DNA from: Opisthorchis felineus
Lineage: Eukaryota; Platyhelminthes; Trematoda; Opisthorchiida; Opisthorchiidae
Length of the DNA: 64,000 bases
NCBI GenBank assembly: GCA_004794785.1
Contig: SJOL01004338.1
Coordinates: 688,743-752,742, forward strand
Reading direction: 5' to 3'
The translations under genes and the position numbers were made by a program. Below, piece after piece: positions 8,130 through 57,965 of this stretch (positions are counted from its first letter, which is position 1; each line of letters opens with the position of its first letter). The notes under the pieces are model-generated. The model was not told the DNA's origin. It searched no databases and was given only the letters and a program-made list of their open reading frames with translations.

Positions 8130-10592
8130 ATATATATGGAAAGAGTGAATACACTGTGTTCAGCCAATTCAGAGGACATTCCCCTGCTTGGTCTGGTGAA
8201 CCAACTGGGTGGTCGAGTGCAAACCAAATTGAAGCCCTTACATCTGAAATGCTGATGCGCTGACCAATAAACGTTGCCCTGGAGAGACAGAGTGTAAAAG
8301 TATTCTACGTTGGTTTTCAGAGAGCTGTAACTAATCACTGATTCTGAATATGTACAGCGTGTCACCAATTAATAAAGAAGTCTAGCTCAAATATTCTATG
8401 TGGTTTGGTCTAGGCTGAAGTTAACTGCCAAATCAGCGAATCTGCATTCACTTTTCTTATCCACCATAGGTACGGAAAGATGCTATCCATTTATTTAAGA
8501 CAGAGCAAATAAAAAAAGAACTATGAAAGCGTTCATTAGGTTGATAATTTTCGCTTGCGGTTGTTGAAGATATGCTAACTCATCTGGGTCCGCGCAAAGA
8601 GCCGCACACAGTCATAAAAACAGAACATGAGTAACCAGCTCTAGGGCTGCTTGCAACCTTAGTTATTTTGCCCAGTCTCCCCAAAAAATCTTCTCCAGCA
8701 AGTTAAAAGTGTTCTTAAAAGAACTATATCATTATCTATCCAGTTTGCCTCGTTCTTCATTGATCAACTTTCTTTCAGCTTCAATAGTCGATATCATCAG
8801 GCTGTTCTTTTGACAACAGATCGAATATTTTACAAAGTAAAAAGTGGGTTCATTGCACATGGACACACGTACATGACACGCCTACAGGACGCACCCGAAC
8901 ACTTCAGCTATTCTACTTGTTATTTAAATATGTTCCAAGTCGAATCCCAAACAAGCATTCTGATGAATCAGAATGTGACAAGCTAGACAGGGCACAAGCA
9001 AATGGTGCCATTCATCGTAAACCAGAGGAGAAAAAGTTTGACACATAACATATGTTGGAAGCTTCATTAGGACCAAACAACAAGCCGATGAGGCCATAGG
9101 GAAAAGTTGTCGGCACCATGGAAAAATTGGATTTGGTTGATAATTATCGGTGTCCCCACACCACTCTGCCAAAACGGTGAGTGTAAATACGGCGGGCAAA
9201 ACCGCTGTATGACCGCTCGTTTTCCACAGTGATAAACGAATCAAGCTGGGTTTTACGGCAAATTCATGGCGATCAGATTGAAAAAATACGTCGTATTCAA
9301 CTCATTTCTGTTTTTTACTAATGAAGCTTTAGGGAAACAAATAGTGTTTGTTGCTGAAGAAACTACATACCAATTTATTGGCAGTTTAGCATGGCTTCTT
9401 GTAGCGATTTGGCTGAATTAGTTGTGCTGAATGAAGAGCACTACTGCACCGTTACCGTTCACTAGCACACTCTTCATTAATTTCACCTCAGAATAATGCT
9501 GGAGCGTTCAAACGTCCCACCAGATCCGTTCAAACACCATATTATTCATGAATACGGCTTCTGTATCGAATTGCTCATTTTTTTGTTGACATGTGTCCAA
9601 TCAAGATAATCAACATAGAATAATGATTTATTCGATTTGCTTATGGGGCAGAACTTATCCGAACATTTAACTACTTAGGAGCAAACAAGTGTTGTTTTCA
9701 GGACTCACGAATTACGTGGAGTTTATGATGAGTCTTTATAAATATCAGTCAAATAATGTGTAATACATACACAGAATCCATTCGGAAAGTGTCTACTTTA
9801 GACAAACCCACCGGTCTAGCAATTAATTGTTTTGTTCATCAGTTCACTTTGTGCATCCAGGCTTACGGCATCCCGATCACACAGAGACTACAAGCAGCGC
9901 ACGAACAGCTTCACACTGCACGTACTTCCAGTTGCTGTGACATAACCAACTGTCTCAAAGGCTATTTGTGTCGGAGCACGTGAAACTACTTTAACCCAAG
10001 TCTAAGTTTGAAAAAATCGCGTGTGCAATGTAACTAATTCTGACCGGTAGGAAAATCTCATGACGACGAACAACAAACGCCCACAAGGCTAGCTGGCTTG
10101 TTCGTGTGCCTGAAGACACATGGAATCTTTAGGGTGCAACATGACGTTCCTGTTCGAAACAAAACAAGGTTAAGATGAGAGGAAAGCAGCTTGCCTTCAT
10201 TAAAATTTTATTCTACATTTCTAAAAAAATGATGGCCAGCAGGGCTGATGACATAGCTGGAACAACTATGAAAGGATGTTGCATCTAACCCGTCGATAAG
10301 TTTTGCACAGTGAAGCGAGCACGCTGATACCTAGGTCCAAATAATGCATTTTTACTAAACGGCACTCATTTCGTCCTCCAAAATCTTTCCAGGAAGTTGA
10401 GGGGAATGGTCTCCAATCTGTTTGACAAATAGTGTTGGCTGAATGAAACTCACCAAGGGGCTGAGCTCATAACTTTCAGAATTTGGGACGCCATTCCTTG
10501 TTGTTTTATGCACGGAGGGCTTCCGTGAGGTCAAGTTTTTCCTCATCCGCCGCAGAAGTGGTGAAGTTATTGACCGAACTACCTTAGTTGTT

Positions 10593-10678
10593 TCCAAGAA
10601 ATACACTCATTTGCAAATCAATTTGGTTTTGCGAGAGACTCACCTGGAACCCAGCTGAATCTCTCGTTTGTGATGTTT
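10593..10678 (+). repeat. Short R1 insertion with target-site duplication
   Basis: These 86 bp match the R1 segment starting CAAGAAATACACTCATTTGC and ending near CTCGTTTGTGATGTTT, as seen twice at 47.9-48.3 kb. The 11-bp word CCTTAGTTGTT occurs directly on both sides (10582-10592 and 10679-10689), a perfect target-site duplication. The hammerhead part of the unit is absent. In the orientation of the ribozyme RNA the element lies on the minus strand. Confidence 0.75.
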
Positions 10679-12019
10679 CCTTAGTTGTTGTTGTTGTATC
10701 AACATCATTGACTTTCTACACTTGTAGCGCAACGACAAGCTACCGTGGTTTGCAACTACGGTTCTCCCCTTCTTCACCGACCGCCCGTTTGGAACAACGA
10801 AGTAGGTCGACCTTGGAGTGGGAATTATGGCGGGGTCAATTATACTTCTATTCTAGTGGCTGAATGTTCGTAAAGTTTCCGTTCCATAACTAACTGTCTT
10901 ATTATAAATGAAGTACCAAAGATGAACCAGACAATTATTATAAAAATTTTCCACGAAAGGTAGCCTTTGTAAACTGTCACTTCAGTGTAAGGAATATATG
11001 TCAAAAGGCTTTGACCCCGTTTGGCCAGCCAGTTTTCATTTTGTGCTTTTTACAATCCAATTTGACTTGTGCACACTTCGCATTGGAAAGTCGACAGCTA
11101 TTAAATAAATTAGTCTTCCGCACAATCCTGTTTTACAGACACTCAGTAACTCAGTCATATGAATAAAGCAAGCTAAAACTGTTGCTATTGAGTCAAAACT
11201 AACGTGCAACTCTAAGGTCAAGTTCACACATCTTTGATAATAATGTTGCAACGGGTAAATAACAAAACATTAGGGTCATAATGACGTTCCGCTAACCGTT
11301 GTAGGATTCACACGATTTGCATCCGGATCATTTTCGTTTATAAATTCCTCGTCCTATCCAAGCGCAGCAATTTTCGAAAGTCCACACAAATGAGGGAAAC
11401 ACTGGACCCGAGTTTCGTTCTATTAGAGCTCGTCAGCAGCGCATACCTTTAGCCTTACCTGTATATGAGCTAAGCGTGTTACCACTGATCCACCAGCATG
11501 CGCCTGAAGCACCTAAACCGTTAATGCCTAGAATGGGGACCATATTCACACTTGGCCAATGTGATAATATTTGCACAAAGCTCGGAGCAAAAATATACAA
11601 AAAACCGTGACGTTAGCAAATTAGAATTGGTTTGTAACTTGCACCAGTATTTGCTCGAGCCTGGCGAGACTGGGCCACTATCCATATACTCGTTGTTTGT
11701 GTGAAGTTATACAAAACTGTCACAAGACCAGCCAGCTATTACAGCAAAGGGATCAAATTAACAAATAATGTCGGCCTCTGTAAGGGATCTGGACTTTCTT
11801 AAATTGAGCGGTGAAGTGCTTAGGGAATGTCAATTCAACACCAAAATGTTCGGAACCTTGCAATAGCTTGAGGCTCACAGGGGAGAGCTAGTGTGGACTG
11901 TCAACGAACCAAGGACCATAAACTCACTTCGTCAGTGCATAAAATGACCTAAAAGTACCGTGTTTCGCTTTCATCCCGACAAATGTAAGTTGTTTTTGGT
12001 TTGCTATAACGACCACAAC

Positions 12020-20200: not shown

Positions 20201-20921
20201 TAGCTTGCGCTAAACAGCCACCTGTTACCATATTTTTCAGGATTCCAAGCTTGCGGACTGCTGGTTATTTCAAATAAGAATAAAGTATTCGTAAAATACG
20301 TTTCGGATTTTTGTCATAGGCCAGGACTCGCCGAAACGACAAAATATTTTACTTCACATTCAAAACACCCTTACCTCACGCAGAATGCCTATTCTGCCAG
20401 GAGTTATATGACTGTGAGGTGGAATTTTCTGGAAAGTTCACCATAGAAGCCCATCAACCATACCATTCATTTGAAGAGAAGTCACGCTGAATTCCTTTGT
20501 TACGGGAGAATTACTGAATGCTCAATACGAACTCCAGGCGTGCGAATTCTGGTGAACCCAAATACATAGATTTTTGGATTCATTTCCACAAGCATTTCAC
20601 ATAAATACCAATAAATTCTTGAATGTGGGTAGTCTTTGGAAATAAAAGCTCAACGGGAGCGTGAGGACAATGGAATGGGTGTACCCACTAGACCGGGATC
20701 CTAAGTATTCTATCTTGACCAAAAGCATAAACTCCTGGATCTTAAGATTATCCTTCACCATCCCTCAGCTCAACTCAAAAATTCAGCTGAATCAAAGTCC
20801 CGTAAGAAATAAAGATGAGAGCTGATAGGAATATGCATACAGGCCTACATAGGAGAAATGCTGAGGTTGAGAAACCCTCCAATAGCTTTGAAAGCCTTGC
20901 AAACATGATATAACGACTTAC

Positions 20922-21206
20922 TTTGCAGACGGTTAGCTGGAGATGATAGTCTGAGCCTCCCTGTATACGGAAACCCCATGGATTGGCCTCAGAGCCGCGT
21001 CGGAGGATTACATCAAGTGGAGAGCGACTTTGTTCTTCCACATCATTGGGATGCTGACCGGAAAGAAGGGCAACTAGGGCTGCTTGGGGTTTAAGGAGTG
21101 GCACATTATTGGAGCTGTTCTGATTTAAGGACGGCTTTGGTCCACGCGGGGCTGAGGCGTGAACCGCGTAAGGGGGAGTGGCCATTGAACCGAAGTAGAT
21201 GTTCAT
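20922..21206 (-). CDS. PDZ-domain protein (Zasp/PDLIM-like), upstream exon
   Basis: This exon encodes 95 residues ending in the first half of a PDZ domain. A low-complexity Pro/Ser/Asn leader (residues 1-60) is followed by the beta1 strand and the carboxylate-binding loop, seen as PWGFRIQGG at residues 76-84, then the strand LQLTVCK. This loop form is typical of the Zasp/PDLIM/Enigma family, whose members sit at the actin cytoskeleton and Z-disc-like structures. A consensus donor (AAA|GTAAGT) follows Lys95 in phase 0. An ATG at 21206 with an A-rich context could be the start; an in-frame stop lies 33 bases upstream. The piece could instead be an internal exon, because PDLIM proteins usually have the PDZ close to the N-terminus and here about 75 residues precede it. 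The domain continues in the exon at 1832-1980. LIM exons, if present, lie beyond the left edge. The PDZ identity is firm; the subfamily is inferred. Confidence 0.85.
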
Positions 21207-24008
21207 ATTTTCGATCTCAGATGACTTCCAAAGCTTTCAATGTTTCTTTTAGATGGTGATATATTATTGGCTTCAGCAAAAGCTTTCTTTTATAGACGTC
21301 GTCCTCCTGTGATCGTGATCCTTTGGGGTCGTTTGCCCAGTACACTGTTGCTGGCAGAAAGCCTAACGATTGGACACTTAAATGGCCAATCAGAACCGAG
21401 TAATTATCCTACCTGTTGTTGATCGGCTTTCGTTTCATCATCGAGACCAATTTGTCCTGATAAAGAGCAGACCCGAACTGTATGATCACATGACTTGGGT
21501 AGCCAGGGTGTGCGCGTTTCCATTAAGTTCATTGGTCCAGCTAGTTTGCCACAGGTTACCAGTTGGTCGATAACTAGTTTCCATGTATGACAGATGGTCT
21601 CCCTGACCCATCGGGACAATGATTGTAGTGCATGTTTTTGGTCTGTTTTGTGTGCTTGTTGATTACCTACGTCGACTCTCGCACTGTATACACTAATAAG
21701 GAGAAATCAATGTGCTTCTGCCAAATAACCAGCGGGGGGAAAGGAACCAAGCGATGGAACTGTTGCAATTGAGTGAATGTTGTACGTGGGGAATTTTGGT
21801 GTTAACAGCAGGCAGAAATGAATATGTACAATTTCTCGCATGGTAGAACACCAAGTCGTTTTAAATGGAGTACTGCCCAAAACCGACCGAAAAATCCACC
21901 GCGAATATTGATTCTACTAACGACATTTTCTTTCCATGACCATAAAACCATAGAGCCAGGGTACTGCGTACTATGCAGCGAATTGCTTCTGGTTAATACG
22001 GACTCCAAAACGTTCATACTTTTTTTTCGGATTATGATTCATAGGCAGAAAAGGTAATGAATTGTGCAACATGTTTCATTATTTTCACTGAAATGACAGA
22101 TACTTTTGTTATGTTTTCTCGCCGCAGCACACAAGGACAAACTGTGTAATTGCGTTAATCCATGGACTAAATTGATGGGTCTAAAAAGAGCTTGGATTCA
22201 AGATAGTCTTTTTTCTAACCAAGGGTAGGTTTGATTTGAGCGCTAAGTTTGTTGGAAAGCTATCATTCATAAGATTGCCGATGTCTTCAATGCGAATTAA
22301 TCCCATTGTTGATTGGCCGCTCATGGACAAAGGGTATATTATTACTACTCGGGTACCAATCCGCCTAGAGATTCACGCCGCACGCACTGTGATGAATCCC
22401 AACAACAATGACAGTCGTACAGTAACAATCGGCATTTCAGCGTAGACTTACCTCACACATACGGGCGAAATCTTGATTAAAGGTTTTTAAGGTTCGTGAA
22501 TAATAACTAACTGCTGCAGATTTCGATCATTTTGGCTAACAGTTTAAATGAGGAACCGGTTAAATAATTCAGGGATAATTTGATTTGCGCTCATACGTGA
22601 ATTTTTTGAAGAAACATGAGTGTTGACTTTCACCTCAAGGGTTTGCAAAAACTCGTTCTTCGAAAAGTATGATGTTCTGTTATGGTTGAGATGACCGTTG
22701 GTCCTGAATGAGCTTTGTGTCTAACAGGGTTGGCAGCAGTGGAACGCGTTCCACCTCTTTTTCTTCCGGTGACTGACGCTTGGAATGTTTGACGTTTTGT
22801 TCTTTATGTTCAAGCATTAGGCTTTTATTTGCAAAAGCTCCCATTCTTTCACAACGATGTCAATGGGCTCTTCAAGTGGGCTTTTAAGTGCAAATTTTAG
22901 ACATGTGTGATTGTTCTTGAAATAAAACAAAGGGCTCCAATATAACAAAGTAAAAATAGTTACACACTGTACCTTTCCTGACGAAGCAAAATGCATGTAA
23001 CATTTTACGACGGGCGCCAACAACTGACTTAAGGATGCTGATTTGAAAATTAAAACCAGTGTCTTCGAAACGCAAGTACAATGAGTTAGCTACTGAGCTA
23101 ACCGGTGATAACTTAATTCATAGTCAATTAATCAAAACTAGCCAGATTTATGCCCACTGGAGTGAACGTTACAACTTTCAAATGAGTTCTTTGGCAAATG
23201 CATAAGTTTTGCGTGCCTCGGAAGAATTGCAGAAACTTAGAGCTTGTCAATGAGATGTGATAGTACAGAAAAATGAAGTGAAAAGCGAAATGAAAGTTTG
23301 TGGGAAAATAGCCCTTGTTCACCAAATCCGAAATGCCTTAGGTGTTATCATTCGATTTTAATTGACTATTCTATTCAGTAACCATCTAATGTGTTCTAAG
23401 TACCATTAACCCTGCGTAACTCATCAGTTGCCTGGATGACGATTGTAAAATTCTCAGCGGGGATTTCGTCGTGAAATTATGTACCTACACAACCTGCAGC
23501 TTAATTAACTAGAAATAAGTCATTTACCAGAGGTAAAGTTTGAGTGCCTTACGCACGAGTGAGCAAATTTATAGTAATCATTTAGTTATACCATTCAGAG
23601 TGGAAGAAAATGTTTGTCACAGTCCCTGGATAGTGAAACTGGCAATTATAAATTGGCGAACATCAGTTTCTGGTGAGATTTGCAATACAGTTTTTTTGCC
23701 GTCTTTAGTCGACTGGCCTGTTCAGACCTGTTCTGCTAGTAAACCTCCTCTCGATAGAGGCCACGCAGCGGAAGAAGCAATTGTCTGTGTATTATTCGAT
23801 GGAAGATTTTTCACAGAATGAAAATGTTTAACAAAAGGATTTTTCAAATGAAAAATTTAGTAAAATTTTTAAGGCCCACTCCATCATGGAGGGGAAGCTG
23901 TGGGTATGTTTCAATGGAAACAGAAGAGCGAAAAACAAAATAGTGAAAAAATTTCGCCCTAAAATAGGAGGAAATAAAATAATAATCAAGTAAGCAAAGT
24001 ACGCAACC

Positions 24009-27100: not shown

Positions 27101-27513
27101 GACAAGGTAGGATGAAGTTCTTTCAGTCGCGTGTGATTTGCGCACAAATTTCACAACACTCCAACTACTCGCAGCTATATTGCATTCGTCTCTAAAGTGC
27201 CCGGTCTTGTGGTCATTTGGTAATCCATATGGTTAAGGTGTTCAGAGGTACAAAAACACTGTTCGGCCACTAGAGACCATAAGCCGCAGATTCTCCGTTG
27301 TTTGTATGTCCCTTACTCGGTCAACGTGAGGGAATTTCTTCATGTTACACAGAGGTGGACAGTTTGTCCGAAAATGCCAACCAGCGCCTCTGTCTGGTCT
27401 GAATATAACGCCGTCAGTGAGGGAAAACGTTGAATTTTCGTTTGCGACACAATAAAGTTCAGGAAAGTGGTGGGTGTATAAGATAGGATGTAAAAGACGG
27501 AACAACGATTTTT

Positions 27514-27640
27514 TGACATGGCACTACCTATAAGGTTGATGAAAACCTATCAACATCCCAGTGGTCGTCTTGCACTTCCGGGGACTCATGGGGTAGCCTT
27601 ATTCCCCAAGTTTCTACAAGCCTTAATTCCCATTTAAACG
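27514..27640 (+). repeat. R1 fragment, decayed
   Basis: ACTACCTATAAGGTTGATGAAAACC and the following GGGGACTCATGGGG and CCCCAAGTTTCTACAA.CCTTA segments follow the same order as the R1 linker at 48.05-48.15 kb. The hammerhead region is on the minus strand and has lost the GAAA and cleavage positions. Age is judged from the many substitutions. Confidence 0.5.
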
Positions 27641-28999
27641 CCAACAGTTACGTAAGCAGGGTTGTATTCTCATTCACATATCATAACGTTTATAACGTTT
27701 TTCTTCAAATGATTGTGTTAAGCGATGGCCACATAAATCTCAGATGGGACGATTTTCTGGACATCGCGGTAGTTGTCTTGACACAAAACCACTTATGTGC
27801 TTCGCCAGTCCTTTTTAAAGCTCAGAAGATGGGTGTAACCATAGAAAAGATCAGGCTGGGATTCGTCTGTAGGCAATTTGTAGAAGAAAATAACATGTAA
27901 TGTGGCATAAAACACTCGAGGACCAAGTGTTTGATTGTGGAAACTTTCTGAGCCGGTCTCTATGGTCCCTATGGCTTGCCGAAATAGAACCCCGATGTCT
28001 TGCTGAAACTAATGAAAAATATGTCCACGTACAAAAAAGAGACAACGTGATTGAGTGAAGTTCACTATCCGCATAGCCATCGTGACACTTGTAAACCTTT
28101 ACACACAATCAAAAACCAATGTCCAACAGTAAATCTGAAATCTTTCGTTGTGATGTCTTTGTTCCCAAGGTTAATCTTTGTAAAGGTTGTGATTTTTTGT
28201 GTGTGATCTCACTAAATCAAAAAGCATTTCAAATAATCCATCAGAAGGAATTCCGTTTTGTTATAAGTATATCAATTATTTACTCTGGTTCTCCAGCTGC
28301 TTGGTATCACAGTTTATTGTGGATGGGCGTGCATCTATCTAGGATTAGAACATACCAATATGTTTCTTCTCTTGTGGCTGTTGGGCGTACGGCAAAGTGA
28401 CTCAGTAAGGAGATATAGGAACATCTGCCGTTTACTGCGACAGCAGTAAAATGAATTCGATAATCGGTGTGCCTGGTAAGCACTCGCTTGACATAAATCA
28501 TAAAGTGAACCTTAGTGAGCCGTTCCGGGTTGTTTTCAAAATGCAATCGAATCAACCCAAATGGGTATAAACCCTCTTGTCGCCAAGGGGGTTCCTAACA
28601 GACGACTTGAATGTATCGTATGTCAGTAAAATCGCTTCAGTCGTGCACCGGTAACCCAACCATGACCCTACATTCTTACACAACCCCATTTCAACACAAA
28701 CAGCTCACAATTCCCCTATTCTGGCCAAACCCTAGGTCATCTACCTTGTAACATTGTGCCAGCCCCTTACTTATCAAGCAGAAAATTTGGTTTGTGATTT
28801 TTCGGATGCTGCTTCTATACTTCGAATCAATCGACGTTACGTGTTCCACAACCCGTACGATTCCCGCTAAGCAATCGTTCAGCATGAAATATATCACATT
28901 TGTTTTGGATCTCAAAGAGTATGTCAATACGTGGCTAAGTGATGGGGTTTCTGTGGTCGAAAGATGAGTGGTGCTTTATCTTGTCTTAGTGACACCTAA

Positions 29000-41229: not shown

Positions 41230-44200
41230 GACAATAGCTTTGATGCACGAGCACCACTGACTGCGCTATTGGTCCATTTCTGCCAGTGTCGTTAACCATT
41301 GGGGAGACGGGTCCCGGGGTCCCCGTCCAGGGAGACGGCAGTTGTCGATCCGACTCAGCTTACTGGTTTCCATACTTTGTTGTCAGGTCATACACTGCTG
41401 ACCTATCGGTAACTTCCACTCAGCACAGGGCTATGCCAAGTGAGCTCTGCGAGACAGATGGACTTCTGACATGCGGAGAAAATATCCTAGCCACCGTAAC
41501 CTATGGAGCGTGAGCAATTCATCTATCGCGAGACTTCCTTCTTCCTAAGACCATCTGGCGCACCTCAGTATTACTAGTCGGATGTTCCACCAGACCTGAC
41601 CAACGCTTCAGAGAAACACATGACCAAACACTGACATCTTTCGTATGTCCTCTGCACGTGGAGTCCAAGTCTCTGAACTATAAAGTAGTAAGGTTCGCAC
41701 TGGCTCAGTGTAAACTCTGCTCTTGACAAACAAACTGCCGTCACGTCGGCGCCATAGATGTCGGAGGTTTGCAAAAGCTGCCCTGGTCTTCTCGATTCGA
41801 GAAGTAATCTCGTCCTCAGCCAGTCCGTCGAAACTTATACAACCACCAAGGTGAACAAAGTTATCTACCACGTCGATTGGCTCGTCTGCAAGCATGAAGT
41901 TTAGGTTTGATCCAACCCAGTCTTGTAGCAGCACTTTTACATTTTGGGGATGTGCAGCTCATGCCAAACTGTGTGGCAGAATTATTAAGATTATTTAAAC
42001 TGGCTCGCATTTTTGAAGGATATGAACCAAGGAGAGCAATACCATCCGCATACTCAATGCCTGTGAGCGAATGTCCCGGAGGCTTTTCGACTCCCGAGGT
42101 TTCAGAGGTGTGCAGAGGAATTTCAAGTACCTTGTCAATAACAAAGTTGAAGACAGAAGGTGAGAGAGGGCAGCTTTTTCCTGCATCACTGGACATGGTG
42201 AACTCAGGCGAAAGCTTGCCATATACTCGTACGCGCCCACAGGAGTTCGCATACAGTGCCCTCATAAGGGATAGAAAGTTGGAAGGGACACCTTTGATCC
42301 CCAGACACTACTAAAGTTTCTGACAATCGACAGAATCAAAATCAGCTTTCAGATCAAGAAAAGCGACCAACGTGCGCCGTCTGAAGGAGTAGCACTGTTC
42401 AAGAATTTGTCTCAAGGTAAAGATATGGTCGATGCATCTTCGACCAGGGTGAAACCAGCTTGATTCTCACGAATCTGTCTCTCACGACAATCCATCAACC
42501 TGCGCAAAATAATGCCAGAGAGTATCTTAGATGCGACGGATACCAGGCTGATATCACGATGGTTTTCACATGACGTTCTTGAGCCCTTTTTGAAAACTGG
42601 GATGACGGTCGAGGAGCTCCATTCGGCTGGTATTCTGTTTTCGTTCCAAATCTTCTGCAGTACGGTCGTCAGACTGTTCCCCAGGAACTCGCCAACTTCG
42701 AGGAGCGCGGGGTGCAGGCCATCAGGGCCAGTTGCCTTATCACTCTTGAGGATTGATATCTCACGCTGGATTTCGGTTGCTCATGGCGGACTGGTGTCAA
42801 TGTTCCATTCGGGCCCGCTTGGTTCTTCCGGCGGTTGTGTTGAAGGAGACCAGCTGAACTGTTATTTGAAGTGCTCAGCCCACCGCTCAAGACGACGAGG
42901 GAGTGAATTGCTATTCCGTCTTTTTCTCATTGTCTAACTGACACCTGCCTTCTTTTGACCGGTTAATCGAATCAGTTGAAACAGGGCGTGGCTGTTGCCT
43001 GCAGCGAAAGCCTTCTGCATCTCCTGGGACCTCGAAATCCACCAGCGTTCTGTGTCATTCTTCAACCTCCTGATTATCCGGTGTTTGAGGGATCTGTGTG
43101 CGCCATCATAGTCGGTAGTTACTGGTATGGCCCTTATGGCAGCAGTAAGATCTGCTGATCTCGACGGTATCCAGTGTTTATTTAGTCTAGTCAGATGGCC
43201 CGGACAAACGGTTCTGAAAGCTGAGAGTATTGCTTCTTTAACTCCTCCATTCAACCTCCAAGCAGTCTTCTTCATCCGCATGACTGTGCGTTTCCAGTAG
43301 TTTTCTAGCCAGATCAGCTCGATACTCTTCAGCTACTGAAACTTGTCGAAGTTGGTGAACGGAGCTGCTCTCCTTTGGCTGGAGAAAAGCGAAGTGCTAA
43401 CCTGGCCCGCACGATGGCATGCTCAGAGTCAAGTTGCGTACCCCAGAAGGAATGACAATCTTTAACTGAGGCTCTCCATCGGTAACTGATATACACATGG
43501 TCCAATTGAGTCCACGACTGTCTTGTGGTAGGTGGCCTCCAAGTAACTCGATGTGAGCGTTTGTGTTGGAAGTTCGTACTGGTTAGGAACAGACGATGAT
43601 CTGTACACAACTAACGAAGCCGCTGCCCATTATCCGTACGCTCAGTATCGACTCCAACTCTACCACCTAACTGTGCTTCTTCCGGACTTATTCGTCCAAC
43701 TTGGGCATTCACATCACCCGCCAGGATTACTATATCTGTCCTTCTTGCTGACTAAAGCGGCCGTGACAGATCTTCATAAAACTCGTCCTCATTCTCAGAA
43801 CTGCAGTCTGTTGGAGCGTATGCTGATACGACAAACAAAACCGTTTACCGCATCGACCTGCGTTAATCTTAGTTGAGCGAGACAACCGCACAGCGCAAAG
43901 ACGACTGTCCACTGGGATCCAGCTTTAGGACTGAGTGCAGCCCCCACGCCGTAGATATCACGAGCCATTGCGTCAGGATCACCAGAAAGCCGAAGAGTGA
44001 AATGTGGAACACCTGGACTCGTCCTAAGCGGCTTGAGGAGCACGACCGAAGTGGGGACTTGTATGCGTGTTTTGGAGACACAAGATACATCGATAAAGAT
44101 GGAAAGTAAGGTTTTAGCAAGGGATGCCTGTTGCCCAATTTGACATAGAGTATGGACATTGAAGGCTGAAATGTGTGTCGGATCTTTTGAGATTAGTAAC

Positions 44201-44300: not shown

Positions 44301-46260
44301 AAATGCATACATTTTAGCCTGAATGGCAGTCCGCAATCCTTGCCCTATATGTACTGCCATTCCGTCGGTCTTATACATTGTGCAAATCCGCCGCACTACA
44401 GTGTCTGTGGGTTGTTGGTTGCAATATGCAGCCCAATACACCAGAACTAGCGGTCAGGTTGCTTGACCTACTAACTACTTGTGGGTTAGTGGGTTGCGGA
44501 AGCATATTTCAAATCAAAAACGCATTTTGATGGATTGTTAGGAATGTAACAAATAATAAAACATGTGTTTGGGACTAAAACTTTTCAAAATGACAATCTT
44601 TGTAGACTCAGAATATTTGATCCCCGGTTCCTATGGTGAATACCGAATGTGCTTTGAAAGGACAAAGTACAAAATGACGAGGTCAGTGAAAGCTCTCTTC
44701 TAGCTGGTCAGCGAACGGTGGCTACAGTGTTTTGGACAAACCATCGACAAAACAGACTATTGGATTATTCTTGAAATAACATACGACCCAAAGGTTGCTG
44801 AAAACTCTCGAGTGCAAAGATTCGCCACATTTGCCTTACCACCAGTCCTTTTTTTTCAGAATCACGCTGTTGCACTAGGTAAGGAGTTAACGCCCAAGTT
44901 TTTTAGTACTACATCAGTTGTACCTGCAATGCCTCAAAAAAGTCCATGGAACCGTGATCTTTGCGGAGACTGAGAATTTCAGGTGTAACATAAGTTGAAG
45001 GTAGTGGGTGCAACCTCCTTATGTTTCTTTGGGTTTCACAACAATGCTTAGATGTAGAACGCAAAGTAAAAACTGTTCTGCTTCTTTCCCCAATCCCTCT
45101 GGATCTGAGCGAATTGTAAAAATTTAAAATGTGCTGACGAGCTGCCAGGCATTTGAAGAACCTGTCATAGCTGAATCAAGTCAAGCCCTTATAAGATCCT
45201 CAATAATTAGGACAATTACTCACAGAGGTAGTACGCATACTCCAGCACTTTCTCCCTAGAAATAGATGAAAACCTCAAATATGTATCACCTGAAAATACC
45301 ACCTTACAGCGCGGCGCACACAAATGTACTAGATAAAAAAAGACGCGATAGTTTACCTGTACCAGAACATGTTCTATTCACTCTTGTTCAAAATTCATGT
45401 TTTTTTAATAATTTTCCTTAGCCCAGGGCTACTGAAAATTTTCAAATTGTTTATGCCTCGGGATAAAAATCGATTTGTCTAGACATTCTTACCCAATATC
45501 CGCCAGCTGTTTCGACATGTTGGATGCCAAAGGTAAACTTTTCACTGTTTATACAAATAATTCTCACACACAGAGCAGCTTATGTCGTTTTACCTGGCGC
45601 ACGCCAACAGTCGTCAGAACTGCATAACTATTCTGCTGCGCTTTTACACACTTTACGGGCATCGCCATAATAATATAGAGACTTGGATCAGCGTGCAGCA
45701 AGAAGTCAGGGACTGGGCAGGCAATTACACATTGGATATGGATTTGGCATGCAATTGATTCATGAGCACGTTGCGGTCCTTAATCACATGTTCACTGTAC
45801 GCACTCTTTTGACAAAGCGATGCCCCGGGCAAAAAAGTTGGATAGATGTTCTTGAATATATTTCAGGTACTAAGAGCTGATTACTTTCGTTCGCAGGTCA
45901 TTTGGGAGCGCCCGCTCCAGCCCTCACTGTTTAAACCTCCTTGGTAATTAGCAGTGCTGTAATTCAAAATCTCTGAATTTGGTGTCTGCATCTCGATAGA
46001 GGAAGACGCTTCCATAAAGTGAGTGAACCTTTCCACGGGGTGACGTTTTGTATGCCTCCGTTCCTCACTGGGCTATACTTGAGGTATTCGTGCAGAATCT
46101 CCCATACAAACGTCTGACCAACACAGTTTGAGGGTATGTATGTATGGTGAACCGTTCTCTAAGGATGTAGATCGCTCTGGTGGTCTTACACCAACCACCA
46201 TTGCCATCGTACCAACTGAAACATGAGATGGCCTAATGCGGCACATTCAGTGGCTTAAAA
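44301..46260. other. Non-coding stretch between LINE copy A and R1
   Basis: The first 200 bases may be the 5' untranslated region of LINE copy A. Nothing recognisable was found in the remainder. Short open frames occur on both strands without similarity. Confidence 0.4.
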
Positions 46261-46468
46261 ACATCATAAACTAGAGATTCAGCTGGGTTCCAGGTGTGTC
46301 TCGCAGAAACCAAATCTGTTTGAAAGTGAGTGTATTTCGCTAATTTCGTGCAATTTGGGTTCAATTAGAACATAAGGTTGACGGAAACTCGGGGACTACG
46401 CCTACTTGATAATCCCCGAAAAGGGCGAAACCGTTCGTGGGCTGTCAAAGGGTTTTCAGCAACCTTAT
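46261..46468 (+). repeat. R1 repeat copy with hammerhead ribozyme motif
   Basis: This copy is inverted relative to the 48 kb copy, so the ribozyme is on the plus strand at 46400-46442. Stem I is GCCTAC paired fully with GTGGGC. The core is TTGATAA (CTGATGA in the 48 kb copy), stem II is CCC/GGG with a CGAAAA loop, GAAA is intact, stem III is degenerate (ACCGTT) and the cleavage site reads TTC. The first part (46261-46340) is the reverse complement of the R1 segment containing CACCTGGAACCCAGCTGAAT. No target-site duplication was found. Confidence 0.75.
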
Positions 46469-47875
46469 GTGTAATGTATTATGTCTATACGCGGATTCAG
46501 ACTGGTTGATTGTCCTTTGCTGCTTCGCTTTGCACTTTTCGTGGCACACGAGGTGCGTATATTTTGTCCGGCCGTTGAGAAGCCCTTGGTAGTCGATGTG
46601 AAGCAAACATACCAAAACCACCTACTAAAATCCTTTTCGTGTAATACGTGCTCTGATGCTCTGATACTAAAAAAATACTGTCGGCAACCCTGCAAGACAC
46701 CGGATTATCTGTGTTTGGAACGGCGCAACTAACTACATCAAGGTGCCGAATCTCGAGCAACACATTAAAACTGATCGAAGCTCGGCTACGTATCCATCAT
46801 GGTACAGAGTGCAGCGCGACCCAGCAAACACTCAGACGTCAAATGGAAGTGGGCACCTGTGAGAATCGAGGAGCCGGATGGGTCGAGAAAGCTGATGGGA
46901 TAGGGGAAGTCAGAAACTTTGAGAATGTGCTAAATTACTCCATACGGTGCGCTCAACAGGCTTAAAAAGCTACCGGTGATCGGAACAATCACTGGCAAAA
47001 ACGGACAGCTCATCTCTAGAAAGAACTGATTAGCTAAGCAGAACACTTTCAACGACAATTCAACTAGTTACCTAGAGTTTCTCATTCGGATTTTCAGCCC
47101 CTCAGTGGACAGTGAATTTAAAACCTCCGTTGACTTTGGAAATACATGAATGCATTTCAACTCTCAAGCGTCACTAAGCTTCCGGTTCTGAATTTCACCC
47201 AATTCGTTTAAGGATAGGATTGAAATCCTCAGTCAGCGATTGTCCAAATTATTTACCTACTTCTGGTCGAAAGAGGTCGTTCCAGCCAAATGTGATGAGA
47301 CATCATTGTTACCTGCCTAAAAAAGGTGCTCTTATTGGATATGATGATTACAGAATAATTAGCTTCACCCGCATTGTAGCTGGATTACTCGCGTTGTTTG
47401 GTTCACGTTGTCTTACGAAGGTGCGTAGAGAAGAGACCCCAAAGCAACAAGCAGGAGTTTGACCGGAAGGGGTCTGTGTTCAACACGTCTTCGCACGTTG
47501 TCAAGTGTTAGACCAATGGCATAAATATAGGTGCCCTACAATCTTGATGTTCGTTGACTACAAGGGTGGGTTCAATTCTGTTGGCCGCTCCGTTCTTTTT
47601 AACAGCCCCTCGCAACAGGATATGCCCCAAAAGTTTGAAAATATCATATTTCTTTGTATTACATATTTGTGGGCGCGTGAGAGAGTATGTCGGGTTTCCC
47701 GAAAGATTCCTTACGAGCGATGGAGTCCGACCAGTCTCTTCACTCTTTTAGTTTTTGTTTACTAAGGTCGTTGACAAAGAAATGCGGCAATTTCTGGGTC
47801 TTCAAACCCCTGATGTTCAGATTGAACTACGCAAAGATATTTGTGCCTTAAAATATGCAGATAATATTGTCCTCA

Positions 47876-48303
47876 AGAAATACACTCATTTGCAAATCAA
47901 TTTGGTTTTACGGGAGACTCACCTGGAACCTAGCTGAATCTCTCGTTTGTGATGTTTCCATGCAACTGAATGTGCTGCACCAGGCCGCCTCATGTTCCAG
48001 GTGCTATGATATTCGAGATATCGCGATGTATGTAATTTTGCGCAATGTACTACTCATAAGGTTGCTGAAAACCCTTTGACAGCCCACGACCGGTTTCGGC
48101 CATTTTGGGGCTCATCAGGCAGGCGCAGTCCCCGAGTTTTCGTCAACCTTATGTTCTACTTGAATCCAAATTGGACTGTTTTCAAGAAATACACTCATTT
48201 GCAAATCAATTTGGTTTTGCGAGATACCCACCTGGAACCCAGCTGAATCTCTCGTTTGTGATGTTTCCATGCAACTAAATGTGCTGCACCAGGCCGCCTC
48301 ATG
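47876..48303 (-). mobile_element. R1 insertion: retrozyme-like element, 1.39 units of 309 bp
   Basis: This element interrupts the LINE copy C frame right after motif C. It is flanked by a perfect 9-bp direct repeat TTGTCCTCA (47867-47875 and 48304-48312). Its first 119 bp recur at an offset of 309 bp with few differences, so it is 1.39 copies of a 309-bp unit. The linker between the repeats carries a type I hammerhead on the minus strand. There is no coding capacity. Small non-autonomous repeats with a hammerhead, transcribed, self-cut and circularised, are known in animals as retrozymes; this copy fits that pattern. The reverse transcriptase would have to come from elsewhere, possibly the RTE LINEs (inference). 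Confidence 0.8.
48082..48124 (-). ncRNA. Type I hammerhead ribozyme motif in R1
   Basis: Read on the minus strand: stem I 5' side GCCTGC (48124-48119), core CTGATGA (48118-48112), stem II GCCC/GGCC with a six-base loop and one C-C mismatch, GAAA (48097-48094), stem III as the six-base palindrome ACCGGT, cleavage site GTC with the cut after C at 48088, and stem I 3' side GTGGGC (48087-48082). Stem I pairs over six positions including two G-U pairs. All conserved core residues are present. The very short stem III is typical of animal hammerheads that work better as dimers. Confidence 0.75.
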
Positions 48304-51300
48304 TTGTCCTCATTTTTTAGAAATAACAGGACTCGTAAGCCTTACTAGAAGTGCTGAACAAAGTTGTCCAGTCCTTCGGTGATTTGAACCCGAAAAGTGT
48401 GAAGTCATACTACATGACACAGTCTTTGGAAATGACTCTAAGGATCCAAGGGGAGGCACTTGAATTTCTGAAACATTACACGTGTTGCGGAAGTTGGATT
48501 AGCCCTGACGGCATTGTGACAGAAGAAGCTAACGCACGGATTTCAAAGGCTAGATTGCATTTACCAATTTGAGCGAGTGTGTATCAAAGAAAACATATCA
48601 CTGGCTTCCAAGGGACGTGTCTACCTGACTACAGTGCAGGCTGCACTGTTGTACCGCTCCGAGACTTAGCCACTTCGGGCGGAGTAGATGGGACATTTTC
48701 AGGTGTCTCACCATCGATGTATAAGGACTAAACCTGAAATCGAATGGAGCCAATGAATTCGGAATAAAGTGATCAGTAGATGAGTCCTTGAGAAGGTCGA
48801 AGAAATTTATTCGAGGACTGTACCCAGAACTGCAAGCCAAGGTGGCTGAACCGTTTGTTACGCATTCCTGGTCCCTACCCTGGAAAGGAGGGTTGTTTTC
48901 CGCCCCAATTCAGAGTGGCGGAAAACTAGACGTGGACAGAATATGACGTGGCAGAAGGGAATGAAAGACGTTACGAAGCGTTTGGGTGCCGCTGGTGATG
49001 GTCGCCCCTTAGGAGGGAGTCCCCCTAATGGATCTTGGCTGGAGACGCTGAACGATGTGGCGACTAACCGATGTCAGTTGCGCCTGAGTTTTTTGCTCTT
49101 CGTTTCATAGAAACCACCTAAATATATTTTCCATGTCTTTATTCGGAAGCTCTGCTCCCTGAAGTTCGTCAAATGCAAGCTTCTTGTCCTAGGGTATCCT
49201 TATAATCTCCATGCTCGTCGCACTTGCCACTTGTTACAACCCCTAAGGTGGAATCTGCCTCTTGGTTCTGCATTGTGTAGCTTTAGAAAAGAGTTGTACA
49301 AACTGCTTAGGCGGATAACGACATATTCACTGAGTGCATTGTTTTATCCGTCTGACTTAAACCGTTCACTCTAAGTTAATTGACGGAAATAAATCTGACT
49401 GGTGATCTTGCGGTCCATTGATCCTCCACCGCTACATTTATTCAATAGAGGGAACGCCAAGAGCAGAGAATAAACGGACTACAAACACATGCAGGAAGTT
49501 TTCTGGAGTAAACGAGCAGTAACTTGGGAGTATAAATGAATGGCGACTAGAAACGTAAGGTACAATCAAGACTTTCCAAGCCTTTCAGCTACATTCCTCC
49601 GGAGGAAACTGTGTGGTGAGCTGTTCCAAAATGAGTCCTTTGGATGTGGCACAACATACTTGAAATAGGTAAGTTTTCATTCTGCCTACTTCAAAACGCA
49701 AAAGTACCAGATGTAATAATCCTCTTAGTGAAGTCAGCGAACTCTCGCAATACAGCAGGGAGAACATGTATGATATGTTACCTTCTTGAAAATATGTTGA
49801 CCTTGAAATAGTCTTTAACGTAACACTTGGCAACGGTTTCTTCCAAGGGAGTTTTTTCAGAGAAACAACAACCGGGTACATTTGTTATAAGGTATTTTTT
49901 CTGGGGTTCTGCCAAAAGTCTAGCAATCAGAGTTCACGAATACAGCTTGGAAACGGACAAATCCTCAAAGGATATTCGACGTTCGACCAACACCATCGGA
50001 TAGTTAGCCTTCTGCTGTAACTTTTCTTAACTTTTTGATGGAACCAAGGCACATATGGTACTAGGTTACAAGGAGATGATTGTTGCAGGGACGGTTTATT
50101 GTTTGATGGTTGTTGATCAGTTCAGTGAGCCTGGCAGTCTGCTTGCAAACTTCGATGCGAAACTCGGGAGGACACCTTCCAGGATGCTGATGAGAAAAAA
50201 AGCGAACAATCAAAGTGCTAGAGAGAAATCTGGATTCAATTATGTATAATGTTTTCCACTTCCACTTGATACAAAAGCCCAGTATGCTCCTGATTTCATT
50301 TTTTGCAGAAGTTAATCAACTGGTAACTTCGGGATCTGCCACCAATAATGTTCATCGATTTTGCACAGATATCTGAATTAGCTGTGAAGTTTTGAGATGA
50401 CGCTCGTGTTACCATTGCCAATTAGTGTATGACTTAGTGGACCATCTTGACGTCTTGAATTTCTCACCTGATCAGTTCTACCAATCACTTACAGTCGCGA
50501 ATTACGACTGATGCTCCATTGGTACATATCGAACTGACCGTGTTCAGAACAGGTACGTTCTGCGTGCAAAATGTCACATCAGTTGCCAATGAGGTCACTT
50601 TCAATTGCCGACATGATGAAAAACTTCCATAAACTGGTGACGTTACAATATCTCTGTCCCCCGTGCAACTAGGTTCCACTGGGCTAGTATTAACGTTGTG
50701 AAAATCCTTACTTAAATCTCAGTACCCTTACCCACGATTCGATTACGAACCGCATCGTCTGATAGGGTACTGCATGTAATCTGCAATCGTTTCTTGCGTA
50801 CAGTAACCCTGTCACTTCAGAGACATGCGGCTAGATGATTTTCTTGTCACTCGTATGATGTTTATTTGACTTGGTCGTCGTCTTTGATGCAGTCGTGCTA
50901 GATGTGGATTTCTATGTTTGTGAAATTCAAGCAAAGGAAAAGAGAGTCAAAATAAACCTCTTGGTTTATGTCGTTCCTTACCTTTGGATAACTATATCAG
51001 TTCTTAAGATGTTACCCAAGCTTCGGTGATTTCACATTATATTTTGAAACTTTGCGTTACCCTGAAAGCAGCCGGGGTTGGCTTGTGTTATTCCTAACCG
51101 TAGCGCACAGTAAGTCATACCGAACACCCGGATCGTTCCCACATCGTTATTATATAAATACTGACATGAATTGGGCTTGCAGAAACTTAAGTCGGAAGAA
51201 GTATAGTGCAAGTAAACCGGTGACTTATTTCAGAGTTCAGAACAGTTGTTCGGTCCAGATTGCTGTGCTCCATCGGGCAGAATGATTCAAGTTCCAATAA

Positions 51301-55784: not shown

Positions 55785-55945
55785 TTTTGACGCAACCTAC
55801 TACTCATAAGTTTACAAAAACTGTCCGACAGAGCACGAACCTTCTCGTCCTTCTCGAAACTCATCAAACGGGCCAACCTGATGTTCATTTAAGACTCCTG
55901 GTAACACCTACTCAGTTTGCAAATGAGTGGGTTTCCCCAAAAGAC
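55785..55945 (+). repeat. R1 fragment, decayed
   Basis: TTTTGACGCAACCTACTACT, then CATAAG, matches the R1 linker (TTTTGCGCAATGTACTACTC, then ATAAG). The ribozyme region on the minus strand retains TTGATGA (55870s) but the partner GAAA reads GAGAA. It ends near the words CAGTTTGCAAATG. An inactive copy. Confidence 0.5.
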
Positions 55946-56469: not shown

Positions 56470-57965
56470 TGAAGGCAACAGACAGCTTGGATCCATGAGC
56501 GAAATCGAGAGCGTGACTAAGACATGTCTAACGATTTCTCTAATCATTGATGTGCGCCGTCTCCGGTCTCCATCCAGGCGGAGCTCAATGACCAGCGCAG
56601 TTGAGTTTGCTGGTAATGGCTTTCATACTTCGCTGCCAAGTCATTGTTTGACATCCTCTTTCCACCTTTCGTGTGCTCGTGCGAAAAGAATCTTCCGAGG
56701 AATTCGGTCGGCTGGCATGTGGAGCACCTGACCAATCCAGGACAAACTAAGTAGTGTGGTTAGTTCATCTATCGTGGGCGAGCTGTTTCTTCCGGAAACG
56801 ACCCGACGCAATTCAGCATCATGGATCCAATGGTCCACCAGATTCAAGTAGTGCCCTAAAGGCACAAATCATCAGAGGATGAAAATTTCTGACGTCCCAG
56901 CCTACAATAATATGGTGCGGCCTGAAGCAGTGTAAACTCGACACTTAAAGAATAAGAATTCGCCACAGGTGATAGGTCCGAGAACGTCCCTGTGGCTTCC
57001 AAATGCTGGTAGAAATAGCATCTTTGACCAGACCAACGGGATCGATACAGCTGCCCAGGTGGACAAATTTGTCTACTACCTCATTCAGCTCATCCGCAAG
57101 CATGAGGCTAGGGTTCAAGCTCACCCAGTCTTGGAGCAGCACTTTGCACAAGTGTGAAGCAAGTGTGAAGCGTATGCCAAACCGTGTGGCAGAATTGTTT
57201 AGATTATTTAGTATTCCTTGCACCACGACGTCATCGGATGCAAGAAGAGTCATGTCGTCTGCGTACCTGATATCTGTGAGTGAACGCCTGAGGAGCACTT
57301 CGACTCCGCAGGCATTAGAGGCTGGTACTGAGTCTTCCATTATCATACCAGTGCCGAAGTTGAAGAGGAAGCGTGAAAGAGGACAGCCTTGCCTGACATC
57401 ACTTAATGTGATGAATTTAGGCGAGGGCTTCACGTAGGCCTTCACATGTCCGCGCGTGTTGGCGTATAGCGTGGCCAGTCGACCGTATTACTTGCTAAAG
57501 GGCACGGATATTTGCGGTAGCGAAAGCCTCCTCCACACCTGGGCTTTAAGTGTCCACCGGGGTCTCCTTAGACTATTCTGGTGAGCCAACTAATTCCGCG
57601 GTTGCTTTGCAGATGGTGGCCTCCTGGTTACGCGATGCGAACGTTTATGCTAAAATTCCGTGTTGGCCATAAACAGTTGATGATCAGCACACTACTGGGA
57701 GTTGCTTCCCGTTGTCTGTGCGACGAGCATCGGCTGCGAATCGACTGCCCTGATGTGATTCCAAGGTGCTTAGACGACCGACTTGGGCATTCATGTCGTC
57801 CGCAAGGATTAAAATGTCCGTACTTTCTGCTTACCCAGTAAGCATATTGCGGCTATGCACTGTAGGGGTTCCACTTGAGCAGACTTTTCGGATTTAAAAG
57901 TATTTCGACCGTGTTGAATAATGTGCTGGCCATCACGGTCGACCGTTGGAGACCGAAGCGTGAGG
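56470..57965 (-). mobile_element. RTE-like LINE copy B with internal deletion
   Basis: The minus strand encodes endonuclease remnants (ILILADDMNAQVGRLSTLES, then DARRTDNGKQL, near 57.8-57.7 kb), a short linker (EEAFATANIRAL, then RSTG, near 57.5 kb) and then jumps to the reverse transcriptase palm: VKPSPKFITLSDVRQGCPLS, RYADDMTLLAS (motif C intact), LNNLNNSATRFGIRF and VDKFVHLGSCI. The C-terminal part includes WIGQVLHMPADRIPRKILFA. The fingers and motif A region between linker and palm is missing, as is the N-terminal endonuclease. GC-rich sequence at 58.1-58.25 kb may be its 5' region. Confidence 0.85.

Follow-up and report, generated by a model that had tools for sequence, protein, structure and literature searches.

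Start sites and inverted 5′ pieces of a hammerhead retrozyme in Opisthorchis felineus point to probable integration by Penelope-type machinery

Non-LTR (long terminal repeat) retrozymes have been described from metazoans (PMC7229834; PMC7761336), where they are recognised by a type I hammerhead ribozyme in a unit of about 150-450 bp. Penelope-like elements have been named as likely candidate movers of animal retrozymes (PMC7229834, PMC7761336), and no conserved motif shows which retrotransposon retrozymes use (PMC7761336). Penelope-like elements themselves are reported to carry hammerheads with a minimal helix III (PMC7761336), and their palindromic inverted joints have been explained by self-priming on an antisense template (PMC3846280). 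Among flatworms, schistosomes have hammerhead satellites, the W-elements, among which one dispersed copy, possibly flanked by a duplication, has been reported (PMC8490949). Here we describe a 428-bp hammerhead-bearing insert in a 64,000-nucleotide stretch of the Opisthorchis felineus genome (contig SJOL01004338.1; hereafter the window), together with its relatives across the assembly. The element is ordinary in kind, a metazoan retrozyme, and unusual in what its genome copies show about integration. We conclude that it was probably integrated by Penelope-type machinery, with the ends of the target DNA priming at two fixed sites on the RNA.

The insert lies at 47876-48303 on the minus strand and interrupts a degraded reverse transcriptase of a long interspersed nuclear element (LINE). 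The original prediction, that the LINE frame is broken by 428 bp and resumes with IF, holds: the plus-strand reading at 47400-47875 runs to KYADNIVL and continues at 48313-48900 with IF and then a stop, which marks this LINE copy as degraded. Joining the flanks restored a continuous tblastn alignment through KYADNIVL-IF, the partners being a second LINE copy in the window and a protein of Opisthorchis viverrini, whereas with the insert kept in, the alignment ended at IVL. In a protein search, a LINE query matched Opisthorchis viverrini with 66% over 68% of its length. A mechanical repeat search found a 142-bp direct repeat at 309-bp spacing; with the ribozyme match below, this bears out the proposed 1.39 units of a 309-bp ribozyme repeat, the overlapping unit parts being 95% identical across 122 bp. 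The same kind of search found a flanking repeat at 47864-47875 and 48301-48312. Its core, which had been called a perfect 9-bp target-site duplication, is TTGTCCTCA at 47867-47875 and 48304-48312, and these two occurrences, starting at 47867 and 48304, are the only ones in the window. The repeat is thus present on both sides as claimed, but TCA of the left copy and TT of the right copy match the unit too, which leaves GTCC (4 bp) as unambiguous target; for the remaining 5 bp, either duplication or microhomology between primer and template may account.

A minimal type I hammerhead occupies minus-strand positions 48082-48124 (Rfam Hammerhead_1, 23.1 bits, E 0.004, under the gathering score), with a minimal helix III and, in this copy, a damaged stem II. 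A related array unit at locus L019 matched HH9 at 32.7 bits (E 2.3e-6), also under the gathering score, and across nine loci (seven retrozyme, two Penelope) no Rfam match reached that score. Because the hammerhead is on the minus strand, the sense RNA runs from 48303 to 47876. Counting u1 as the first base past the ribozyme cut, the insert spans u92 to u215 in the sense direction, with its sense 3′ end at 47876. It lacks any reverse transcriptase or GIY-YIG frame of the Penelope kind, as the window's list of open reading frames has none of 120 amino acids there.

We compared this insert with copies from the 630-Mb assembly (1848 contigs). With the insert as query, the best 40 of 7289 first-look candidates were scored and gave 131 matches, of which 40 loci were read, the window and 39 fetched (set 1). 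A second query, positions 46206-46473 of an older subfamily-2 copy in the window (46206-46480, plus strand) that ends near the second start site described below, was treated likewise, scoring the best 40 of 5850 candidates and reading 39 loci (set 2). Units are 309 bp in subfamily 1 and 307 bp in subfamily 2, with a G+C content of 0.456, and the hammerhead core pattern is intact at 119 of 141 recognisable sites. Copies in the loci read are mostly longer than one unit, with arrays of up to 11 units, and the set-1 flanks are mutually unrelated except for one match (97 bp, 82%); the genome thus contains the dispersed, non-coding ribozyme element of more than one unit that had been proposed. The family had been suggested to be possibly undescribed; elements of this kind are known as metazoan non-LTR retrozymes (PMC7229834). 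The present family resembles them, as far as the portions of those descriptions used here go, in its type I hammerhead, its unit of a few hundred bp, its copies of more than one unit, its G+C content below 50% and its duplications longer than 4 bp, and no LTR-type anatomy was noticed in it (PMC7229834; PMC7761336). It differs in its minimal helix III, and in two start sites and a different-site rule that those portions do not contain. By description, the schistosome W-elements resemble it in being hammerhead-bearing repeats of flatworms (PMC8490949). ARAGORN found no transfer RNA in one array locus, and no search aimed at RNA polymerase III promoters was made. The 309-bp unit read in antisense has one frame that stays open through two joined units (205 codons), probably by chance, since units of 307 and 314 bp break it.

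The sense 3′ ends of these copies are fixed. In set 1, 38 of 40 fall within 6 nt of two sites, 30 at S1 (u215-218) and 8 at S2 (u49-52), the exceptions being L019 (u37) and L031 (u29); this count omits older second copies in L032, L040 and L042 and the window copies at 10589 and 46206, and takes the two pieces of L012 as one end. Both sites read AAAA in the sense of the window insert, at 48179-48182 (S1, u215-218) and 48036-48039 (S2, u49-52) on the minus strand, these positions coming from the sequence and the sites from the copy ends. The 5′ ends of uninverted set-1 copies, by contrast, are scattered, with 1 of 17 in the windows around the two sites and 2 of 17 no more than 6 nt away from the cleavage point of the ribozyme. 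The expectation of variable phases at both ends is therefore borne out at the 5′ end, where ends lie away from the cut as foreseen, and fails at the 3′ end. In set 2, whose query itself ended at S2, 37 of 39 3′ ends are at S2; the other two are L091, at a gap of Ns, and L104, where the fetched stretch ends. Incidental copies in the fetched DNA (66-88% identity) agree, 11 of 13 ends lying within 12 nt of S1 or S2, where 13 of 27 rows were used and the remainder were parts of main elements or repeats. In a predicted circular fold (-97.1 kcal/mol; shuffles -78.2, SD 5.7), S2 occupies a loop and S1 is part of a weak hairpin. We rejected the AAAA tract as a general start signal: it fits subfamily 1, but subfamily 2 has lost AAAA and yet keeps its ends. 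The subfamily units differ in 24 columns, 14 of them within the 33 positions assigned to S1 and S2 (u212-223 and u40-60, windows picked after the data were seen) and 10 within the other 276. A change of helper may be one reading of these differences, and the linkage of S1 and S2 within each set may be a product of query selection.

Many elements carry an inverted 5′ piece head to head with the main piece (41 elements: 17 in set 1, 24 in set 2), although the window insert does not; only S1-primed complementary DNA (cDNA) is seen in it. The outer end of the inverted piece usually falls at a start site, lying within 12 nt of one in 14 of 17 set-1 cases, and this is nearly always the other site. 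The 39 evaluable composites, written as outer end/main 3′ end, comprise 26 S1/S2, 6 S2/S1, 1 S1/S1 and 6 in which one end lies at neither site (L013, L020, L025, L031, L092 and L107), that is, 32 different-site, 1 same-site and 6 other (Fisher p 6e-6). Set 2 contributes 22 of these, its 24 composites less L091 and L104, which end at the N gap and at the edge of the fetched stretch, respectively, with 20 S1/S2 and 2 other; because that set has a single main site, the test of independence draws on set 1 alone (p 0.005). L113 can be read in both directions and is different-site either way. The main cDNA ends no more than 11 nt from the start of the inverted cDNA in 5 of 17 set-1 composites (L011, L020, L031, L036 and L048); such proximity is not evident in set 2, and we made no use of it. 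At L012, 313 bp of unrelated sequence are captured at the inversion joint, between the inverted and the main piece, as reported for Penelope.

Target-site duplications accompany part of the dispersed insertions, and where present they enclose the whole composite, inverted and main piece together. Their lengths (7-15 bp) are about those anticipated. Exact edge repeats of at least 8 bp occur in 14 of 41 set-1 elements (46 measured, 5 with N flanks excluded) and in 14 of 39 set-2 elements, against 0.37% and 0.20%, respectively, when flanks were swapped between loci. Inspection by eye added two further set-1 duplications, at L012 and at L014, which itself sits within an older copy of the family. 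By class, duplications are found in 8 of 17 set-1 elements with an inverted piece and 6 of 24 without, and in 14 of 22 inverted set-2 elements against 0 of 12 uninverted ones (L084, L086, L090, L094, L097, L102, L108, L112, L114, L116, L118/L119 and L120); L118 and L119 have identical flanks and are counted as two among the 39 elements and as one in the counts by class. Among 18 set-1 elements with repeats of at least 7 bp, the repeat begins on average 2.7 nt inside the unit match, compared with 0.35 by chance, a value possibly inflated by BLAST extension across a mismatch. This overlap suggests that target and RNA anneal by a few bases.

The same genome holds Penelope-like elements with a similar end structure. 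A search for GIY-YIG gave 6 matches, three of them in what we read as Penelope-like frames, and two 858-codon Penelope frames contain both RVT_1 and GIY-YIG. Our two-site reading covers the 12 copies of one family, B, with family A (L059) set aside. The open reading frame of family B has both RVT_1 and GIY-YIG. Its copies end, on the 3′ side, at either of two positions, a or b, separated by about 40 nt, which resembles the optional tail known from Penelope-like elements (PMC3846280, in the part used here). Of the 7 inverted copies, 6 combine a and b, one at each end (C1298, C1019, C1164, C1240, L060 and L061), while C113 is ambiguous. Exact duplications of 12-14 bp flank four of these six; C1164 has one of 11 bp with one mismatch, read by eye, and in C1019 none was found; the uninverted copies C316 and C1476 have duplications of 12 bp. 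A search for reverse transcriptases, in which the best 150 of 3386 candidates were scored, listed 151 matches. Among these, Penelope-like matches form close inverted pairs on C143, C841, C845, C1522, C1743 and C795 and close tandem pairs on C860, C909, C1205 and C858; of these contigs, our reading covered parts of C845 (L061) and of C909 (L059).

The retrozyme thus shares with Penelope-like elements, as these are set out in the part of PMC3846280 used here, a hammerhead, a 5′ piece inverted head to head, target duplications some 10 bp long, a choice between two 3′ ends with one on each side, and capture of foreign DNA. It differs in lacking a frame for reverse transcriptase or endonuclease, in its 309-bp units, and in the spacing of its start sites, some 143-166 nt apart on the circle as against about 40. 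By the features examined, the unit is not a Penelope element, and yet it appears to integrate like one.

From these sequence comparisons we consider it likely that the retrozyme inserts by target-primed reverse transcription, and Penelope is a reasonably likely helper; the circle, its cleavage and the helper are all inferred. In the proposed course of events, the transcript of a genomic copy would undergo hammerhead cleavage and circularise at about 309 nt, and a Penelope-like reverse transcriptase with a GIY-YIG endonuclease would make a staggered break. One target 3′ end would anneal by a few bases to S1 or S2 and prime a cDNA able to run on beyond the cleavage position. The other target 3′ end may start synthesis at whichever site is left, the two cDNAs joining head to head, and some copies would later expand into longer arrays. 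More tentatively, one circle held in a Penelope-type complex might present both start sites, each end of the break priming on a different one, and the two sites might change in concert, as one module, perhaps along with the helper.

Several observations weigh against this account. Both sets are best matches to two queries and not random samples, and the sites and their windows were set after the data had been seen. The 12 usable uninverted set-2 copies have no duplication of at least 8 bp. Comparing inverted pieces with their own main pieces by identity does not single out one template molecule, and the inverted pieces of L044 and L048 resemble most other insertions more closely than the main piece beside them. 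The unit has no significant similarity to the family B terminus (score 22 against a shuffle mean of 25). Finally, three arrays (L011, L014 and L019) have one variant each that is common to two adjacent units, and L017, L022, L110 and L117 contain units of both subfamilies together. One circle cannot yield neighbour-shared variants or mixed-subfamily arrays; the latter suggest template jumps or recombination.

Units are 99.5% identical within arrays and 97.4% between them, and private differences are confined to the first or last unit in L011, L013 and L019 and concentrated there in L022 (14 of 19 in the first of three units), while L014 has its one in an inner unit. This pattern points to post-insertion expansion or homogenisation, multimeric templates, or assembly. 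We therefore rejected long arrays as proof of many laps: their inner units are identical and their end units diverged, as expected if arrays grew once inserted. We also dropped a stop after exactly one lap in subfamily 2, as the lengths can follow from query selection. More than one lap around a circle, as proposed, is plausible for the insert, although a multimeric linear transcript would serve as well. Since copies longer than about 50 nt that started at S2 cross the cut (u1/u309), their template would have been circular or an uncut multimer. The same element might be copied with no circle at all, from linear transcripts of genomic arrays that are either multimeric or read-through, a reading we regard as unlikely but worth serious weight: arrays of up to 11 units, neighbour-shared variants and mixed-subfamily arrays all speak for it, whereas with so many cores intact (119 of 141) multimers should tend to cut themselves, if active, and related animal retrozymes are abundant as circles (PMC7229834, in the part used here).

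The remaining alternatives concern the machinery. With LINE machinery, too, 3′ ends are fixed, 5′ ends vary, and inverted 5′ pieces arise along with duplications, and LINEs are present in the window, so a short interspersed nuclear element-like unit moved by a LINE with ordinary twin priming deserves consideration. Twin priming by LINEs, however, starts at internal points that are scattered; here the inverted piece has a fixed outer end, nearly always at the other site, and the different-site rule is matched by the Penelope copies of this genome, the retrotransposon copies in which it was looked for. We hold this explanation to be rather improbable. Somewhat less probable still is that the unit is a terminal repeat or internal-deletion derivative of Penelope itself: the two share a minimal hammerhead, an inverted 5′ piece, duplications and a pair of 3′ ends, but the score against the one Penelope family compared falls below the shuffle mean, and the unit has neither a reverse transcriptase nor an endonuclease frame. 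As for a fragment of a satellite array placed by recombination, the long head-to-tail arrays with homogeneous inner units would suit it. Dispersed copies with duplications, fixed 3′ ends and flanks unrelated but for that single 97-bp match led us to reject a plain satellite, and make this origin highly improbable.

Integration by Penelope-type machinery would thus leave a structural trace, fixed start sites with a different-site rule, that retrozyme and Penelope copies have in common and that makes the question of the mover testable. Conversely, two priming sites on one RNA are a suggested reading for the inverted terminal repeat with optional tail of Penelope. Among the matches listed, no such start sites appear in titles and abstract openings on retrozymes, flatworms, Penelope and twin priming, a sample in which subscription journals are mostly uncovered.

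The window contains further copies of the family. A 92-bp unit match at 10589-10680 (minus strand) ends at S1 and has an 11-bp duplication, CCTTAGTTGTT, at 10582-10592 and 10679-10689, which overlaps unit-like bases in part. Old relics that end near S2 lie at 27511-27644 (66% identity) and 55785-55873 (73% identity), both on the minus strand. An open frame at 20775-21236 (minus strand) includes a stretch that resembles the start of a PDZ domain; a Pfam scan at E 0.001 was negative. Two more LINE reverse-transcriptase relics lie at 41861-43332 and 56945-57487, again on the minus strand.

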